DNA of 64,000 bases from Pedobacter insulae (lineage in GTDB: Bacteria; Bacteroidota; Bacteroidia; Sphingobacteriales; Sphingobacteriaceae). This document shows, piece after piece, positions 2,631 through 9,384 of this stretch. The position numbers were made by a program, and so were the translations under genes. The stretch covers positions 186,001 to 250,000 of the forward strand of contig NZ_FOPP01000006.1 of assembly GCF_900113525.1 (NCBI RefSeq), written 5' to 3'. A model generated the notes under the pieces. It did not search any database. It saw only the letters and a list, made by a program, of their open reading frames with translations, and was not told where the DNA came from. Positions within the stretch are counted from its first letter, which is position 1, and each line of letters starts with the position of its first letter.

Positions 2631-3998
2631 TTATCTTTCGTTCTGAATTAATCCCCCCAATATTACAGCATCGTTAGGAATTGCGAAAACATAGCGTTTA
2701 TCATTAGGAAGCAGTTGATACTCTTTATTTAATATATTTCTTTTCATAGTAATTTTATCCTCATTGATTAAATTGAACCTGCGTAAATCAGACCACCTTA
2801 AGCCTCTACAAACTAATTCCTTCCTCCGCTCTGCTAATATCTTACTTAGCGCATCTTTTTGATTTATGGCAGTGAGTGGAACAAATTGGTTCTTTTTCCA
2901 TCTTTTAACCAATAACTTATTTAAATTAGCCATAGCTTCTTCCACAGCTCCTTCCCTTGCTAAACACTCTGCCTGAATTAAAATCATTTCGTCAGTAGCC
3001 AACCCATTAAAATATTGCCTTGCGCCTGAATAGTTCCCTTTCATCGACCAATATTTTCCGTTTTTTCGAAAAAACATTGGTTTCCTAAGATCCCCATTTC
3101 CATAAGAAGCAGTTAAAGAAGAGTCGATGCAAACAACAGATGAACCAGTGAAAGTTAGATCTAGTATAGTTGCATAAAAGATAACTTCATCATTAACAGC
3201 AAGCAAAGGATTAGGTAATGGTCGTGTAGAAGTAGAGTCTAAAAGATTATAATCAAGTAATTTCTCATTACTTGCTAGTACTATTGAAGCATATTGCTTA
3301 CTCATTTTATAATTAGACATCGCTAAATACACACGTGCAAGTAATGCTTGAGCAGCTGCTTTAGATGGCCTCGATTTTGCGGATCCTCCAGTTGAGAATA
3401 ACTCAATTGAGCGTTCTAAGTCCTTAACCACCAGATCATAGCTCTCTTTAAGATTTGACCGCGGAACCACCTCATTCACATCGGCAGACAGCCTGATTGG
3501 AACTCCCAATAGTGAATTTTCATTTCCACCACCATAAGGTGCAGCGAAAACCTGTAACAGGTTAAAGAAAGCAAATGCACGATAAAATAATGCTGAGGCA
3601 TGTATTTGACCCATCCCAACTTTATCTGTTTCAGTATCCTTAATCTTCTCTAAACCATCTAATACAATATTGCAATAAAAAACTTGGGAATAAGGAGTAT
3701 TCCAGCCACTGATGATCGGTATATTTTGATAAGTATCTTGCGACCAGATATAGGCATTCTGACTTATTATATCTAAGGAACTAAAACCTCCATCATCTAC
3801 AAAACAATCATCAGCTGCTATATGTTGCAAGTCTGGCACACGATTCATCGTTATATTATCTAGCAAAGCTTGAAAATCTGCTAATTTCTGCGGAATCAAC
3901 AAGGCTTTATTTGGTTTCTTGTCCAAAAAATCTTTTTGACAAGCAAATAAGGATAATAAGCAAATCCCTATTAGAAGTTGTGTATATTTTTTAATCAT
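2631..3998 (-). CDS. SusD/RagB family nutrient-binding lipoprotein
   Basis: A 455-residue surface lipoprotein paired with the SusC-type porin upstream. The signal peptide ends in a lipobox (LLSLFAC, Cys20). The N-terminal SusD domain includes helical TPR-like repeats (ALFYRAFAFFNLLQVFA; AAAQALLARVYLAMSNYK). The C-terminal RagB/SusD signature ILAERRKELVCRGLRWSDLRR lies near residues 390-410. SusD-like proteins cap the SusC transporter and bind the substrate, usually a glycan or peptide. It starts six bases after the susC stop, so the two are cotranscribed. The substrate cannot be read from sequence: no glycoside hydrolase or peptidase gene is adjacent. Confidence 0.9.
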   Translation of the reverse strand: MIKKYTQLLIGICLLSLFACQKDFLDKKPNKALLIPQKLADFQALLDNITMNRVPDLQHIAADDCFVDDGGFSSLDIISQNAYIWSQDTYQNIPIISGWNTPYSQVFYCNIVLDGLEKIKDTETDKVGMGQIHASALFYRAFAFFNLLQVFAAPYGGGNENSLLGVPIRLSADVNEVVPRSNLKESYDLVVKDLERSIELFSTGGSAKSRPSKAAAQALLARVYLAMSNYKMSKQYASIVLASNEKLLDYNLLDSTSTRPLPNPLLAVNDEVIFYATILDLTFTGSSVVCIDSSLTASYGNGDLRKPMFFRKNGKYWSMKGNYSGARQYFNGLATDEMILIQAECLAREGAVEEAMANLNKLLVKRWKKNQFVPLTAINQKDALSKILAERRKELVCRGLRWSDLRRFNLINEDKITMKRNILNKEYQLLPNDKRYVFAIPNDAVILGGLIQNER

Positions 3999-4003
3999 TT
4001 CTT

Positions 4004-7000
4004 TTAAAAATTAAGTTTAAGGCCCATTGCAATTGATTTCCCTAGAGGTGCAATATTAAAATATTCCGGATCTATGGCAAATTTAGTAGCCTTCCATATA
4101 ATACCTAGGTTGCTCGCATATGCATACAATTCAAGGTTTTTAACACCAAGGAGAGTTTTCTTTACAGCATAGCTAAATCTAACATCCGCTAACCGGATGT
4201 GATCTCCTTTTTCAACTAAAACCGAAGAATAAAGATAAAGGTTGTCCCTCGAATTGTTAAGTGCAGTAGGCATAGAGGGAACAGAAGTTATCAGTTCATC
4301 GCCTGCTTTTTGCCATCTCAAGCTGTAATCCCCATGCCCACCTTTAGCGGTCAGTACGTTATTGTATCTGATGGATTGTCGCCTAAAATAATGTCCAAAT
4401 TTATAAGAGATATTTGCCGATAAAGTAAAATTCTTGAAAGTAAAACTGTTCCTGATCGTACCAAAAAAATCAGGCCTTAACGAACCATGGAAAATCAAAT
4501 TTTCTGGTGTTATGCCACTAATTACCTTTGCATAATCCTTGCTTGGCACGCCATCCAAGTAGCCTCTCGGATCACCAGTTAAAGGGTCTAGTCCTGCCCA
4601 ATCATAACTATAAACGCTGAATATCGGAAAACCTGTTTTAGGAATACCCGCAAATTGCAGGTAGCTATCTACCGTGGCATTGGCACCATAATAGCTTACT
4701 TTTTCACGGTTAAAGGCCATGAGCAAATTCGTATTCCATATAAAACTAGCACTAACGATATTATTACTGTTAATGGACAAATCAATCCCATGTCCTTTCG
4801 TATTGGCCGTGTTTCCATTGAAAGTTTTAATACCCGTGGTAGGGTCAAATGGAATTGCTCCAATTAAGTCAATTCCATTCTTACGGTATATATCAATGGT
4901 TCCATTTATCCGTGATGAAAACAAGCCAAAGTCTACTCCTAAGTTTATAATTTTAACCCGTTCCCATCTTAAAGAAGGGTTTGGCGGATTTTCAACTACC
5001 GCAAAAGGCAATAAACTGGCGCTAGTGCTACCATTAGAATATCTTGCAGTTGTATAAGCAGATAAGCTGCGATTTACATTTCCGTTATACCCAAATGAGC
5101 TACGCAAATTTAAATGATTTACAACCTTAGATTTGAAAAATGGTTCTGATGAAATATTCCAAGCTGCTCCTAATGAATAAAGCGGAACTCCCTTTTGGTT
5201 ATAATCTACACCAAATAAATTACTCTGATCCAATCTAGCACTCCCAGAAAACGTATATCGATTTTTGTAACTGTAAACAATATTTGTAAAGTAGGATAAG
5301 TATCGCTCACTTAACTCAGTACTACTTACACCACTTGGAACACTTACTAAAAGCCCAGGATAAGCCAATTGTTCAAAAGGAGTTAAATAATCAACATCTC
5401 TACTCGTGGCGTGCTCACTGTCATATCCATAAAGATTATAACTGTTTGTTATGGTAGTTAAATCCTTAATTTCTGTCCCAATTATCCCAGTGATGTTATT
5501 TATATCATTCCATGTTTTGTTATAGTTAAGTTGAGCTCTGGCATAATGCCCCTCAAGCTTGCCCATAGTCTTTTCATAAATACCTCCAATCGGAACATTA
5601 TAAGTTAGTTTACCATCAGCGGCAACTTGCGTAAAGTTGTTGATCAAATTTCTGGCGTAGTAACTTTTTTCACTATTTAAAGTATAATCGTGTGTATCAT
5701 TTCTATTAAATTGATACCGGAGTTCAAAATTTAAATCCTGATTCCATTTATACTTTAATCCTGTATTGAAACGATATTCTTGCTGACCAGTATTTCTATC
5801 CGAGAGACCAATATTATCAAGCGGATTGTAATTCCAGCTGAGCAATTTTTTCTGTGTAGCACTTTCCACAAAAGAGGCACGGTAATTTTTGATAACATTT
5901 TGCGTATTTCCATGGTCATCAACCAATCTGGCATACGGATAAAGCTCGGTTGCTCCACTAAAATATAAATTACCTGGATTATTTAACTGACCATTATTGT
6001 TTGAATAATTAAAGCTATTAGACAACTCCAATTTGTTTTTAAAAAATAGATAGTTGGTAGCAGCGTTTAGCGTGATCCGTTTATTTTCATTACCTACCAA
6101 ATTAGCTAATTCCCCATCGTAACCAAATGACAGGAAGTAATTATTTGAAATACTTCCCCCTTTAAGGTTAACTGCATATTGTTGTGATACATTATTACGA
6201 TTCAAATAGCTACTCAAATCATTTCTTAAGTCAATCTTTTTCAAAGCATCCAAACCTTGGTTCATTTCAGACTCAGAGATTTTGCCATTTTTGTGCGCCA
6301 ACATTAATTCAACTGCCGGGGTTAAAGGCTGGTTGTTAATGGAACTGATAGCCGCATTATAGTAACCCTTCCCAAATAACATTTTTTCAACATCAATGTA
6401 GTCGCCCGAGTTCATTCTACTGTTATAGAAAAGATTTGGCCGTTCTCCAATAGTATAATTTGCGGTGGTAGATACAATAGGTTCCCCATTCATACCTTTT
6501 TTTGTGGTTATGACAATCACACCATTCCCAGCCCTAGCACCCCATATAGAGGCAGCTGAAGCATCTTTTAGGATAGTGATGGTTTCTACATCATTAGGAT
6601 TAATAGAGGTTATATCTCCATCATATGGAAAATTGTCTATCACAATTAGTGGATTATTACTTGAATTAATAGTGGCTGTGCCTCTAATTGAAATCGAATA
6701 CCGGTCTACAGACGAACCCGATCTATTAAATGCCAAACCTGGCACCATATCTTCCAAACTTTGCAGAATGTTTGAGGATACCTTTCGCGTCAACAATTGG
6801 TTGTTGAGTTGCGAATAAGAACCTGTTACCCGGTGTTTAGGGATTTGTTGATATCCACTATTGACCACAACTTCCTGAAGCTGTTGTTCAGTTTCTACCA
6901 TTTCTATTTGCATGGGCATATTAGGATCTGTTCCAAGCCGAACTGTTAACGATTTGTATCCAAAATGGGTAAAAGTAAGCCATTCATTACCTAAACTTGA

Positions 7001-7186
7001 AATACTAAACCTCCCAGAATTGTCTGTCACAATCACCTGCTGACTTCCAGCAATAGCAACATTAACCTCATTTAAAGGAAGTTTGGTCGTTGCTGATTTA
7101 ACTGTTCCGTTAAAGACCATCGTCTTTTGAGCAATGGCAGACTGAAACAGACCTACCAAAAGAATAATTATTAGGCTATTTTTCAT
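4004..7186 (-). CDS. SusC/RagA family TonB-linked outer-membrane protein
   Basis: A 1060-residue TonB-dependent transporter. After the signal peptide (residues 1-19) comes a carboxypeptidase-regulatory-like domain (about 22-110). The plug (about 120-235) carries the SusC signature regions (NNPLIVIDNFPYDGDITSINPNDVETITILKDASAASIWGARAGNGVI in part), and the rest is a beta barrel ending in a hydrophobic strand (MGLKLNF). No STN anti-sigma-interacting extension precedes the regulatory domain, so direct signalling to a FecR-type anti-sigma factor is unlikely. Its first 11 bases overlap the end of the TlpA-like gene, and SusD follows after 5 bases, so the three form one operon. Confidence 0.92.
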   Translation of the reverse strand: MKNSLIIILLVGLFQSAIAQKTMVFNGTVKSATTKLPLNEVNVAIAGSQQVIVTDNSGRFSISSLGNEWLTFTHFGYKSLTVRLGTDPNMPMQIEMVETEQQLQEVVVNSGYQQIPKHRVTGSYSQLNNQLLTRKVSSNILQSLEDMVPGLAFNRSGSSVDRYSISIRGTATINSSNNPLIVIDNFPYDGDITSINPNDVETITILKDASAASIWGARAGNGVIVITTKKGMNGEPIVSTTANYTIGERPNLFYNSRMNSGDYIDVEKMLFGKGYYNAAISSINNQPLTPAVELMLAHKNGKISESEMNQGLDALKKIDLRNDLSSYLNRNNVSQQYAVNLKGGSISNNYFLSFGYDGELANLVGNENKRITLNAATNYLFFKNKLELSNSFNYSNNNGQLNNPGNLYFSGATELYPYARLVDDHGNTQNVIKNYRASFVESATQKKLLSWNYNPLDNIGLSDRNTGQQEYRFNTGLKYKWNQDLNFELRYQFNRNDTHDYTLNSEKSYYARNLINNFTQVAADGKLTYNVPIGGIYEKTMGKLEGHYARAQLNYNKTWNDINNITGIIGTEIKDLTTITNSYNLYGYDSEHATSRDVDYLTPFEQLAYPGLLVSVPSGVSSTELSERYLSYFTNIVYSYKNRYTFSGSARLDQSNLFGVDYNQKGVPLYSLGAAWNISSEPFFKSKVVNHLNLRSSFGYNGNVNRSLSAYTTARYSNGSTSASLLPFAVVENPPNPSLRWERVKIINLGVDFGLFSSRINGTIDIYRKNGIDLIGAIPFDPTTGIKTFNGNTANTKGHGIDLSINSNNIVSASFIWNTNLLMAFNREKVSYYGANATVDSYLQFAGIPKTGFPIFSVYSYDWAGLDPLTGDPRGYLDGVPSKDYAKVISGITPENLIFHGSLRPDFFGTIRNSFTFKNFTLSANISYKFGHYFRRQSIRYNNVLTAKGGHGDYSLRWQKAGDELITSVPSMPTALNNSRDNLYLYSSVLVEKGDHIRLADVRFSYAVKKTLLGVKNLELYAYASNLGIIWKATKFAIDPEYFNIAPLGKSIAMGLKLNF

Positions 7187-8537
7187 CTTTACTCGGGGTT
7201 TTATTTGCTACATATAAAGGATTATCTCTGAAAACGAGCATATCAATTTCTGCTTCCTTTTCAACAAAGGCTAAACCATATTTGGCAAGTTCCAAATTAA
7301 TTTTATTTACATTTTCGAAACCTGTAAGTTCAATATTTACTTTTCCCAAATAACCAGTTCCATCTATAACAGGCAACTTACTATGCTGCATATAAAAACT
7401 ATTACAGTGATATATAAATTTGGTGAACGTTACATTTGCAAATTTTTTGAGTTTATTATCGTCAGGAGAAACAGGTACTAGTTTACTGATGTCTATTTTA
7501 CCAAAGTCGGCTGTTTTGGTAAGCACTAAACATTTGACCTTTCTTTTTTCAAACCCTACTATATATTGGCTAAAAACCCTACGCAGATCCTCCGTCATTA
7601 TTTTAAATACATCAAGCCTCAAATTATTGGGAACAATCAATTCGTAACAGAAAGCATTTGTTTTCCGCCATTCTTTATAGGTTAGTGACTTAGGCACCCT
7701 TCCAAAAGCCAGTGTGTCCTTTAGTTCAACTATCATTTGATTTCTACGGAAATACCTAATCTGTTCTCCCATAGCAACAGAAAAAAGAGTTTCAATGCTA
7801 ATGTTTGTAAAAGTTACTTTTCGCGGCAAATCACTCTTAATGGTATACCTGGTATTATAACCACTATGTAAACCGTCAATAAAACCCGTAAGTAATGATT
7901 GATAATAGATTTTATTAACTGCACCTAAATCACTAGAAGCTACTAAAGGTAATCTTGGATCGTAAGCAACCTGCATGTCAGCTTTTTTCTGAAAACTTGA
8001 GGTCTGACGTAAAAGTGCCTCTTGGATAGACTTAGCGTTAATTTCTTTATGATCAGTGATGGCAATCACTTTGCCTTCTCCATCTATCCACACATAGTGC
8101 GGCAGGTAAACATGTGGAAATAATGCATTTAGCTCCTTTTGGTCGGTTAAAACAGGAATACTGAAATGGCGACCCTGCTGTTTTTCAAATTTCTTCAGAA
8201 AAGGTATTACTTCATTTGCCGTTTGATAGGTTGTGGAAATAAACTGAATTTTATTTCCAAAAACTTTCTGCAAGCTATCCATTTGGGGTATCATAGCTAC
8301 ACAAGGCTGGCACCAGGTTGCCCAAAAATCGAGTATTACTAGTCTTCCTTTAAAATCTGATAGATTAGCAGTAGTACTTTTATAATTATAGAGATTGGTA
8401 AGCTTTACTTCTGGCACCATCTGTCCAATCTGTAGCCCGCGTTTAATCACATCTACTGCCTTATTTTCTTGCGCATTCACACAAAAATTTAGGCAAAGCA
8501 GTGCCAGTACGGATAATGCCGTTATTTTTTTCATCAT
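7176..8537 (-). CDS. TlpA-type thioredoxin fused to a DUF3738-like domain
   Basis: A 453-residue secreted protein. The signal peptide (MKKITALSVLALLCLNFCVNA) is followed by a TlpA/ResA-like thioredoxin domain (about 36-170) with the active site Trp-Cys-Gln-Pro-Cys at residues 75-79. The C-terminal half resembles DUF3738: an element TFTNISIETLFSVAMGEQI near residue 240, a ferredoxin-like stretch, and a final block containing LPVIDGTGYLGKVNIEL. Similar fusions occur at SusC/SusD loci in Sphingobacteriaceae. It is the first gene of the operon and overlaps susC by 11 bases. It probably acts as a periplasmic thiol oxidoreductase serving this uptake system; the role of the DUF3738-like part is unknown. 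Confidence 0.85.
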   Translation of the reverse strand: MMKKITALSVLALLCLNFCVNAQENKAVDVIKRGLQIGQMVPEVKLTNLYNYKSTTANLSDFKGRLVILDFWATWCQPCVAMIPQMDSLQKVFGNKIQFISTTYQTANEVIPFLKKFEKQQGRHFSIPVLTDQKELNALFPHVYLPHYVWIDGEGKVIAITDHKEINAKSIQEALLRQTSSFQKKADMQVAYDPRLPLVASSDLGAVNKIYYQSLLTGFIDGLHSGYNTRYTIKSDLPRKVTFTNISIETLFSVAMGEQIRYFRRNQMIVELKDTLAFGRVPKSLTYKEWRKTNAFCYELIVPNNLRLDVFKIMTEDLRRVFSQYIVGFEKRKVKCLVLTKTADFGKIDISKLVPVSPDDNKLKKFANVTFTKFIYHCNSFYMQHSKLPVIDGTGYLGKVNIELTGFENVNKINLELAKYGLAFVEKEAEIDMLVFRDNPLYVANKTPSKDEK

Positions 8538-8844: not shown

Positions 8845-9069
8845 CTCGTATCGGTTATACGAGTCTCTGATATATAAAACACCATAGCGGGCCCTAAATA
8901 CCATCTTGCTAGGTTTTCGACGACCCTTGAAACGGAATTACAATAGAGCCCATAGCGCTATAGTGTGTGCAAAATACACAAAATATTGCCATGGGCATTA
9001 ATCTATTGTCCCGTTCAATTGCAATTGTCGAAATTTAGCAAGCGAGACTCCTTTAATTAATACCTGATT
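8845..9069 (-). ncRNA. Structured 5' leader / candidate cis-regulatory RNA
   Basis: Read on the minus strand downstream of the promoter at 9076-9105, the segment can fold into successive stems. TGCC/GGCA lies at 8987-8997 and TGTGT/ACACA at 8964-8980. A long-range 10-bp stem joins 8956-8965 with 8880-8889 (one G-U). After a five-base bulge it continues as 5 bp between 8946-8950 and 8890-8894, closing a 51-base loop. A 7-bp hairpin follows at 8845-8863, ending just before the ATG at 8842. No known riboswitch class was recognised. The stems were paired by eye and no energy calculation was done. Confidence 0.45.
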
Positions 9070-9075
9070 ATAAAT

Positions 9076-9105
9076 CAAATGTAATAAATTTTTTAGATAA
9101 GTCAA
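9076..9105 (-). promoter_or_regulatory. Bacteroidota-type promoter driving the leader and tlpA-susCD
   Basis: On the minus strand, TTG (9105-9103), a spacer of exactly 19 bases, then TACATTTG (9083-9076) match the Bacteroidota -33/-7 consensus. Transcription would begin near 9069 and cover the structured leader. The -33 box lies inside the inverted repeat at 9097-9122. Confidence 0.6.
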
Positions 9106-9150: not shown

Positions 9151-9384
9151 ATGCAACCAATGCCCATAGCAATCTTCAAAATAAAGCTAGCTAAACGCAT
9201 CCGCCAACTCAGAAAAGAAGCGAAACTTTCGCAGGCAGAACTCGCCACTAAAATTGGTTTCAAAGACAAACAGATCGTTAACAACTACGAAATTAATGGC
9301 GCCAACCCAACCGCATACAACCTGGTCTTAATTGCTGAAGCCTTAAACGTTACACTCGACGAACTATTGGATTTCAGCAAATAG
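9151..9384 (+). CDS. XRE-family helix-turn-helix regulator
   Basis: A 77-residue single-domain DNA-binding protein of the Cro/C1 type. The HTH spans about residues 14-70, with the usual pattern IRQLRKEAKLSQAELATKIG followed by the recognition helix (DKQIVNNYEING) and LDELLDFSK at the end. No sensor or effector domain is attached. An internal Met at codon 4 is an alternative start. It is divergent from the tlpA-susCD leader, and the 12-bp inverted repeat between them is the natural candidate for its operator. Confidence 0.85.
   Translation: MQPMPIAIFKIKLAKRIRQLRKEAKLSQAELATKIGFKDKQIVNNYEINGANPTAYNLVLIAEALNVTLDELLDFSK

Follow-up and report, generated by a model that had tools for sequence, protein, structure and literature searches.

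Introduction

SusCD systems are among the main uptake machines of the Bacteroidota. Several designs are known with which a leader RNA ahead of such an operon can be compared. Translational switches are usually built as a competition between a closing stem and a hairpin on the start codon. The arrest peptide TnaC ends in Pro-stop and works through Rho. In the leader of the tna operon, attenuation is reported to proceed via ribosome arrest on a short leader peptide (PMC3902921), and ribosomes have been described as able to keep intrinsic terminator hairpins from forming (PMC5021804). The ilvB-II motif of Corynebacterium is a conserved RNA motif in which a conserved uORF is reported to regulate the operon (PMC10272879). 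From Pedobacter itself, the structured Pedo-repair RNA (RF01715) has been reported (Table 1 of PMC2864571).

The DNA analysed here, referred to as the window, is a stretch of 64,000 nucleotides from Pedobacter insulae (contig NZ_FOPP01000006.1), and all positions are those of the window. An original prediction had placed a structured leader RNA of no known class ahead of a tlpA-susCD operon on its minus strand. What was found at this place has the look of a two-layer gene switch, so far undescribed, in Sphingobacteriaceae. No description of such a leader, or of leader peptides before SusC, was found in a literature search whose range excluded most subscription journals and all preprints.

Promoter and genes of the operon

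The minus strand from 9069 to 8620 constitutes a conserved leader ahead of tlpA-susC-susD. Profile matches in Pfam and NCBIfam showed that the three genes had been named correctly. They encode, all on the minus strand, a TlpA-type thiol-disulfide oxidoreductase (7176–8537, 453 aa), a SusC-type TonB-linked outer-membrane protein (4004–7186, 1060 aa; TIGR04056, E 8.5e-150) and a SusD-type lipoprotein (2631–3998, 455 aa; SusD-like_3, E 1.2e-34). The promoter was present exactly as claimed, with a −33 element TTG at 9105–9103 and a −7 element TACATTTG at 9083–9076 separated by 19 bases, a combination which we take to be a promoter of the Bacteroidota type. From these elements, transcription would be expected to start near 9069. 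A similar box, TAnnTT[T/C]G, was looked for in related loci (described below) within the 42 nt that lead up to about the conserved 5′ end of the RNA; it was found in 44 of 99, with 6 expected in shuffles.

The leader had been given a length of 450 bases. This extent needed correction, as about 530 nt lie between the expected start at about 9069 and the start of tlpA at 8537. Within this distance a 47-codon open reading frame (8842–8699) and a terminator (8689–8621), both ahead of the first gene, had been overlooked.

Occurrence of the leader and its neighbouring genes

With the covariance models of Rfam 15, no family reached its gathering score and the only match in the window was a tRNA. A relaxed scan of the leader region gave eight matches up to E 5, all far below gathering, and the same scan of 14 related loci gave two low-scoring matches up to E 1; Pedo-repair (RF01715) was not matched in either the window or the 14 loci. 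The statement that the leader matched no riboswitch class therefore held in this Infernal/Rfam search.

Homologous segments do exist in genomes of the genus and the family. By plain DNA search, 62 of 145 genus genomes were seen to contain relatives, short partial matches counted in, and the core motif was present in 31 DNA stretches, all from Pedobacter. Two covariance models were then used, R1 (built from 26 copies) and R2 (for a diverged class, class B). R1 matched 74 of 144 genus genomes and 58 of 201 family genomes, the latter in 11 of 25 genera. At the level of the order, R2 matched 101 and R1 89 of 250 genomes, and among the matches listed all belonged to the same family. Class-wide samples gave matches in 6 (R2) and 4 (R1) of 395 genomes, all Sphingobacteriaceae, with strict Infernal filters that may lose weak matches. 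The genome of the window itself carries just two copies by R1 and R2, the one in the window and, on contig 21, one of class B (L167, G000:C21; E 2.1e-40 with R2) that precedes a 284-aa ORF. For L167, no SusC match was found in the stretch examined and the a:b helix described below seems absent. One of the two copies stands before SusC. SusC matches number 56 in this genome, 53 of them above the curated cut-off, and yet only one was found behind this leader.

For comparison, 100 loci were chosen, not at random, comprising 60 genus matches, 39 family matches and the second copy of the window's genome; the set is biased and rich in two multicopy genomes. One locus (L111) was dropped because its stretch ends at a contig end and the element was absent at the expected place, leaving 99. 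SusC lies downstream on the same strand in 68 of these. Many of the tlpA or susC genes behind the leader were seen by eye to start like MKKxxxxVxALLCLNF in Pedobacter and like MKNFYxxGREL in other genera, and in some of the products a long extension at the N-terminus precedes a second signal-like stretch.

SusC is missing behind the leader in 31 loci. In most of these the RNA is followed directly by a gene for some other protein, and most stand before proteins of 86–150 aa, about 430 aa or 284 aa. Scans of 95-, 134- and 430-aa proteins behind other copies found no Pfam or NCBIfam family above cut-off, and one copy (L031) precedes a protein with a match to sigma-70 region 4. A protein of about 430 aa directly follows the leader in L076, L080, L082 and L090; the one member scanned matched no family in Pfam or NCBIfam. 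In the multicopy Pedobacter genomes G128 and G012, dispersed copies (L101, L105–L110, L112–L122) with differing flanking genes precede small proteins of 86–95 or 138–150 aa from apparently unrelated families. Near three of these units (L105, L108 and L116), downstream of the small gene, are proteins with RYIDPxxDFGFKHIFG, presumably Rpn/PD-(D/E)XK transposase-like.

On the other side of the leader, a small gene on the plus strand (9151–9384) encodes a divergent Cro/C1-type regulator of 77 aa (HTH_3, E 2e-15). In 60 of the 68 SusC-linked loci, a divergent ORF of 55 aa or longer was found to begin no more than 320 nt upstream. When 61 divergent proteins including that of the window were scanned with a cut-off of E 0.01, 38 matched HTH_3, and further HTH families were matched by overlapping sets. 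Identity to the window's own protein ranged from 7 to 57%.

A separate idea, that a short 3′ motif is a recombination site between silent susC cassettes (a shufflon), was dropped. The motif occurs once in the window's genome, with up to 3 mismatches allowed, and several lone motif matches in other genomes lay at the ends of class B leaders.

Fold of the leader RNA

The RNA from 9071 to 8838 had a minimum free energy of −81.4 kcal/mol, compared with −51.5 (sd 4.1) for its shuffles (z −7.2), none of 200 shuffles being as good. Its closing stem P1 pairs GAGUCUC (9050–9044) with GAGACUC (8867–8861) on the minus strand. P1 hardly varies among copies, and its support is therefore conservation. Inside P1 lies a rod (9042–8905) made of stems P2 (9042–9036/8911–8905), P3 (9033–9027/8921–8915), P5 (9009–9003/8946–8940) and P6 (8996–8988/8956–8948), with P4 and P7 within the same interval.

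Covariation was observed in both classes of the leader. In class A, the class of the window, 49 pairs (8 of which are between strand c and the 3′ half of strand d, defined below) were paired in 92.8% of cells; 26 of them had changed on both sides, giving 132 double-changed cells against 39.2 in shuffles, and pairing fell to 31–41% when the partners were slid. In class B, 48 pairs were paired in 95.5% of cells, with 97 double-changed cells against 27.0 in shuffles. For the rod of both classes, sliding the partners by 1–3 columns left pairing at only 28–42%. The two classes differ in sequence (GACAATAG...CTATTGT in class A, GACAGCAG...CTGCTGT in class B). Judged by these changes, base pairing in the leader is under selection.

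Conservation also extends to unpaired stretches and to an internal-loop sequence in the rod. A leader bound by an RNA-binding protein, possibly the product of a local gene, that picks one of the folds in the manner of ribosomal-protein leaders would give this loop a role, and the divergent regulator gene beside most SusC-linked copies would supply a candidate. Cro/C1 proteins, however, bind DNA as a rule, and the divergent proteins, only 7–57% identical to that of the window, also speak against it. We consider this explanation improbable, and the preferred reading, in which the RNA would gate translation of a leader peptide, would assign the regulator to the promoter.

Alternative pairing of four strands

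Four minus-strand segments of the leader were found to take part in conserved alternative pairings. Strand a (GGUAUUAAU, 9064–9056), at the 5′ end of the RNA and comprising its first conserved bases, is complementary to AUUAAUGCC (9002–8994) inside the rod. The latter is part of strand b (9009–8988), which holds the 5′ arms of P5 and P6 and can pair with a or with c. Strand c (8965–8940) pairs with b in P5 and P6 of the rod or, alternatively, with strand d (UAGGGCCCGCUAUGGUG, 8896–8880).

The c:d helix, 8965–8944 with 8896–8880, is the long-range stem of about 10 + 5 bp, with a G-U pair and a five-base bulge, that had been noticed originally. Across 26 class A sequences, 98.0% of its cells were paired, compared with 18–43% in slid versions. 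In class B, 97.1% were paired despite unrelated sequence (29–54% when slid). Double changes amounted to 4 cells in class A (shuffles 0.8; one slid version, at −1, reached 5) and to 12 cells in class B (shuffles 3.4; one slid version, at +1, reached 13). Since double changes are few and do not exceed those of slid partners, support for c:d within a class comes mainly from kept pairing. The stronger argument for this helix is that the same pairing recurs in two classes of different sequence. Compensatory changes in the homologues as a whole were confirmed, but few of them fall in c:d of class A (the 4 cells above). As c:d takes up bases that belong to P6 and to the edge of P5, it and the rod are never both complete. 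The chain of at least four stems envisaged at first must be modified accordingly: the stems were recovered, but not as independent elements, because most of them combine into a single rod, part of which is incompatible with c:d.

The specificity of the pairings was evaluated in the 99 loci by comparing the mean duplex energy of strands from the same locus with that obtained with foreign partners. For a:b the values were −10.7 and −8.7 kcal/mol, for b:c −25.0 and −18.0, and for c:d −28.6 and −20.8, respectively, and in each case 0 of 2000 permutations did as well. For a:b, the own partner was better than the median foreign partner in 71 of the 99 loci. The helix is made by GGCATAAA with TTTATGCC in L128 and L160 and by GGTATTTGA with TCAAATGCC in L159, and it is weak in L144, L161, L078, L082 and some others. 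Kinship of the loci inflates these tests, and the non-partner combinations, carrying the same kinship, served as the control: a:d was matched by 1980 and a:c by 1028 of 2000 permutations, and b:d was borderline (101/2000). The results therefore define two consistent partner sets, a:b together with c:d, or b:c. Comparison of the loci establishes these as conserved alternative pairings, between which the four strands would swap partners.

Hairpin at the start codon

A hairpin of CUCGUAU with AUACGAG (8863–8845, minus strand) ends 2 nt before the AUG of the leader peptide. A stem of at least six uninterrupted base pairs was present in 79 of 97 loci, compared with 1.6% of shuffles; L159 and L163, which have no GACTC-like arm, were not counted. 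The CTC that ends the 3′ arm of P1 (GACTC) also provides the first bases of this hairpin, so that P1 and the hairpin would, going by the overlap, compete for the same bases. In 54 loci the hairpin is followed after 1–2 nt by the first ATG, which in 29 others overlaps the 3′ end of the hairpin. Several of these 29 are multicopy small-gene loci, where a second ATG a few nt later is the true start of the gene.

Leader peptide

The reading frame that follows the hairpin (8842–8699, minus strand) encodes a peptide of 47 aa, MKKLTKSVIIFILSFLRKARFGFCFSVNHNSTCPFNRLYALKPKNPV-stop, for which nothing above cut-off was found in Pfam or NCBIfam. When, downstream of the hairpin, the first ORF with 12 or more codons was taken from its first ATG, with no Pro condition in the choice, it ended in Pro-x-stop in 65 of the 68 SusC-linked loci, as against 215 of 2955 background ORFs (7.3%). 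In two of the three exceptions the Pro was one place earlier. With the longest ORF taken instead, the count was 63 of 68. Peptides at SusC loci varied in length from 14 to 125 aa and had recurring ends such as KNLISAPE, KNIIKSPV, LVICAPE and ALKPKNPV.

Among the 31 loci without SusC, the ending was found in 4 by the first-ATG rule and in 11 by the longest-ORF rule. The former count is too low because, in several copies of the 91-aa gene, the first ATG sits in the hairpin and is not the start of the gene. Seven of the 11 are copies of one protein of 91–92 aa, and three are typical leader peptides whose SusC was lost or never present in the stretch. The Pro-x-stop ending is thus not strictly a trait of SusC leaders, and the seven copies suggest that it may matter beyond leader peptides.

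The last eight codons of 60 peptides were compared position by position (60 of 62; L073 and L163 were left out). Third positions were near random (1.6–2.0 bits) and the first and second positions were under stronger constraint, above all in the final two codons, Pro and the next, although the peptides were picked by a Pro-near-end pattern and the Pro is partly there by construction. These values point to selection on the amino acids, not on the RNA. The C-terminal residues are, then, conserved up to the stop codon and selected as amino acids, as in an arrest peptide. A recurring run of one codon, the enrichment expected of a trp-type leader, was not seen in the leader peptides picked by that pattern. 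By analogy with arrest peptides, the ribosome would be expected to pause at Pro-x-stop.

Another view takes the leader as a dispersed near-palindromic (MITE-like) repeat, whose symmetry merely mimics RNA structure. The sequence is near-palindromic and there are several copies per genome, with up to 14 R1 matches in one genus genome. A palindrome has no need of the a:b and c:d helices, however, and the strand is fixed, as is the distance to the start codon, a promoter box is conserved, class B keeps the topology with another sequence, and the peptide ORF is associated in 65 of 68 loci; blastn searches of plasmid and phage collections gave no match. On these grounds the repeat was dropped as a very improbable explanation.

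Terminator behind the leader peptide

An intrinsic terminator, a 12-bp stem followed by a U-rich tail, occupies 8689–8621 on the minus strand, starting 9 nt past the stop codon of the peptide (region −21.6 kcal/mol). A ribosome on the stop codon would, by its footprint, cover the beginning of such a stem. In Pedobacter, a terminator started 3–18 nt past the stop codon in 23 of 27 loci, compared with 1.0 (at most 3) in shuffles. In the other genera, one was found just past the stop in 7 of 34 loci (0.45 in shuffles). This strict test covered 27 + 34 of 62 loci, with L073 left out and peptides picked by the Pro-near-end pattern; it was relied on in preference to a looser test, with peptides picked in the same way, which gave 40 of 64 loci against 20–21 in shuffles (64 of 67; L167, L073 and L077 left out). 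As the other genera mostly have no terminator at this place, attenuation cannot be the general output and some other output must apply there. A CCxATTxTxxACC-like stretch was seen by eye to recur about 60–90 nt past the peptide stop in L137, L140, L142, L148, L149 and L156; it may be the output element of other genera, in place of the Pedobacter terminator.

The position of the terminator and the ending of the peptide also bear on whether the leader is an orphan metabolite riboswitch, with the rod as aptamer, P1 and the start-codon hairpin as expression platform, and the peptide as a vehicle of translation coupling without pausing. Conserved covarying structure is present in the 5′ leader, its closing stem overlaps the would-be platform in 79 of 97 loci (an overlap of sequence), and the two conserved alternative folds, the conserved unpaired stretches and the occurrence before several unrelated genes would all agree with such a switch. 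Left unexplained by it are the selection on amino acids at the C-terminus of the peptide and the start of the Pedobacter terminator a few nt past the stop codon, and the other downstream genes share no pathway that would suggest a ligand. We regard a riboswitch of this kind as rather unlikely.

Discussion

The original description of a structured leader RNA ahead of tlpA-susCD has been substantiated by the lack of an Rfam family, the selected pairing and the repeated position before SusC-family genes. It was incomplete, not wrong, in that it did not include the leader peptide, the attenuator, the start-codon hairpin, the helix at the 5′ end and the divergent regulator. We infer a regulatory role for the leader RNA.

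Comparison of the loci establishes the alternative pairings, the start-codon hairpin, coding selection on the peptide, the terminator with its position and the association with the genes. Upon these we propose a cis-acting switch of two layers, in which the RNA would gate the leader peptide and a paused ribosome would override the attenuator before tlpA-susC-susD. The pausing, its link to the terminator, the ON state and the signal are the conjectural steps, and for the scheme as a whole the chances appear about even. In the first layer, the leader would take either the b:c pairing of P5 and P6 or the combination of a:b and c:d. The state adopted would decide whether P1 takes up the CUC that otherwise completes the hairpin on or beside the start codon, and hence how often the peptide is translated. 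In the second layer, the conserved C-terminus with Pro-x-stop would cause the terminating ribosome to pause on the stop codon. In Pedobacter, this ribosome would cover the start of the terminator stem 3–18 nt downstream, and RNA polymerase would read through into tlpA-susC-susD; with no translation or no pausing, the operon would be cut off. The divergent Cro/C1-type protein probably sets the activity of the promoter. Candidate signals for flipping the RNA are a metabolite, a protein or ribosome traffic.

That the RNA and the peptide are conserved, functional parts can be stated with high confidence, and confidence in the mechanism is moderate, having been reduced slightly by the finding of Pro-x-stop in a gene family without SusC. 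More tentatively, with chances that we would put somewhat below even, the leaders could represent a new class of control, in which a bistable four-strand RNA gates a Pro-x-stop arrest peptide and licenses one SusCD-TlpA system, spread in Sphingobacteriaceae and usually accompanied by its own divergent Cro/C1-type regulator. If a structured RNA is coupled to a conserved leader peptide, these operons would be under a further level of control that gene annotation misses. With its two covariance models and over a hundred natural variants, the family makes the proposal directly testable in culturable bacteria.

In relation to known systems, the leader has been filed under neither the trp-type nor the TnaC-like attenuators, because the codon run of the trp type is missing and stalling enters by analogy. 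With Pedo-repair (RF01715) it shares being a structured RNA in Pedobacter. Like ilvB-II (PMC10272879), it was found as a conserved RNA motif; unlike it, it belongs to other organisms and other genes, and the rod, the alternative helix and the peptide are separate conserved parts. Translational riboswitches of an orphan class would have the 5′-leader position, the covarying structure and the opposition of closing stem and start-codon hairpin in common with it, but the ORF gated in SusC loci would be a leader peptide.

The trp-type attenuators resemble it in the exchange of four strands (1:2 + 3:4 versus 2:3), the leader peptide and, at most Pedobacter loci, the intrinsic terminator. The mutually exclusive pairing of four strands was borne out here by the permutation test, though the exchanging strands precede the peptide, whereas in the trp-type they lie within or after it, and the peptides are without a recurring run of one codon. 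No likeness in sequence to TnaC was noticed in passing. What the element has in common with the tna leader (PMC3902921) is a short leader peptide with conserved residues before an operon, with attenuation via arrest in tna and proposed here. The Pedobacter element differs from the tna leader in its 230-nt structured RNA upstream, its intrinsic-hairpin attenuator and its Pro-x-stop ending.
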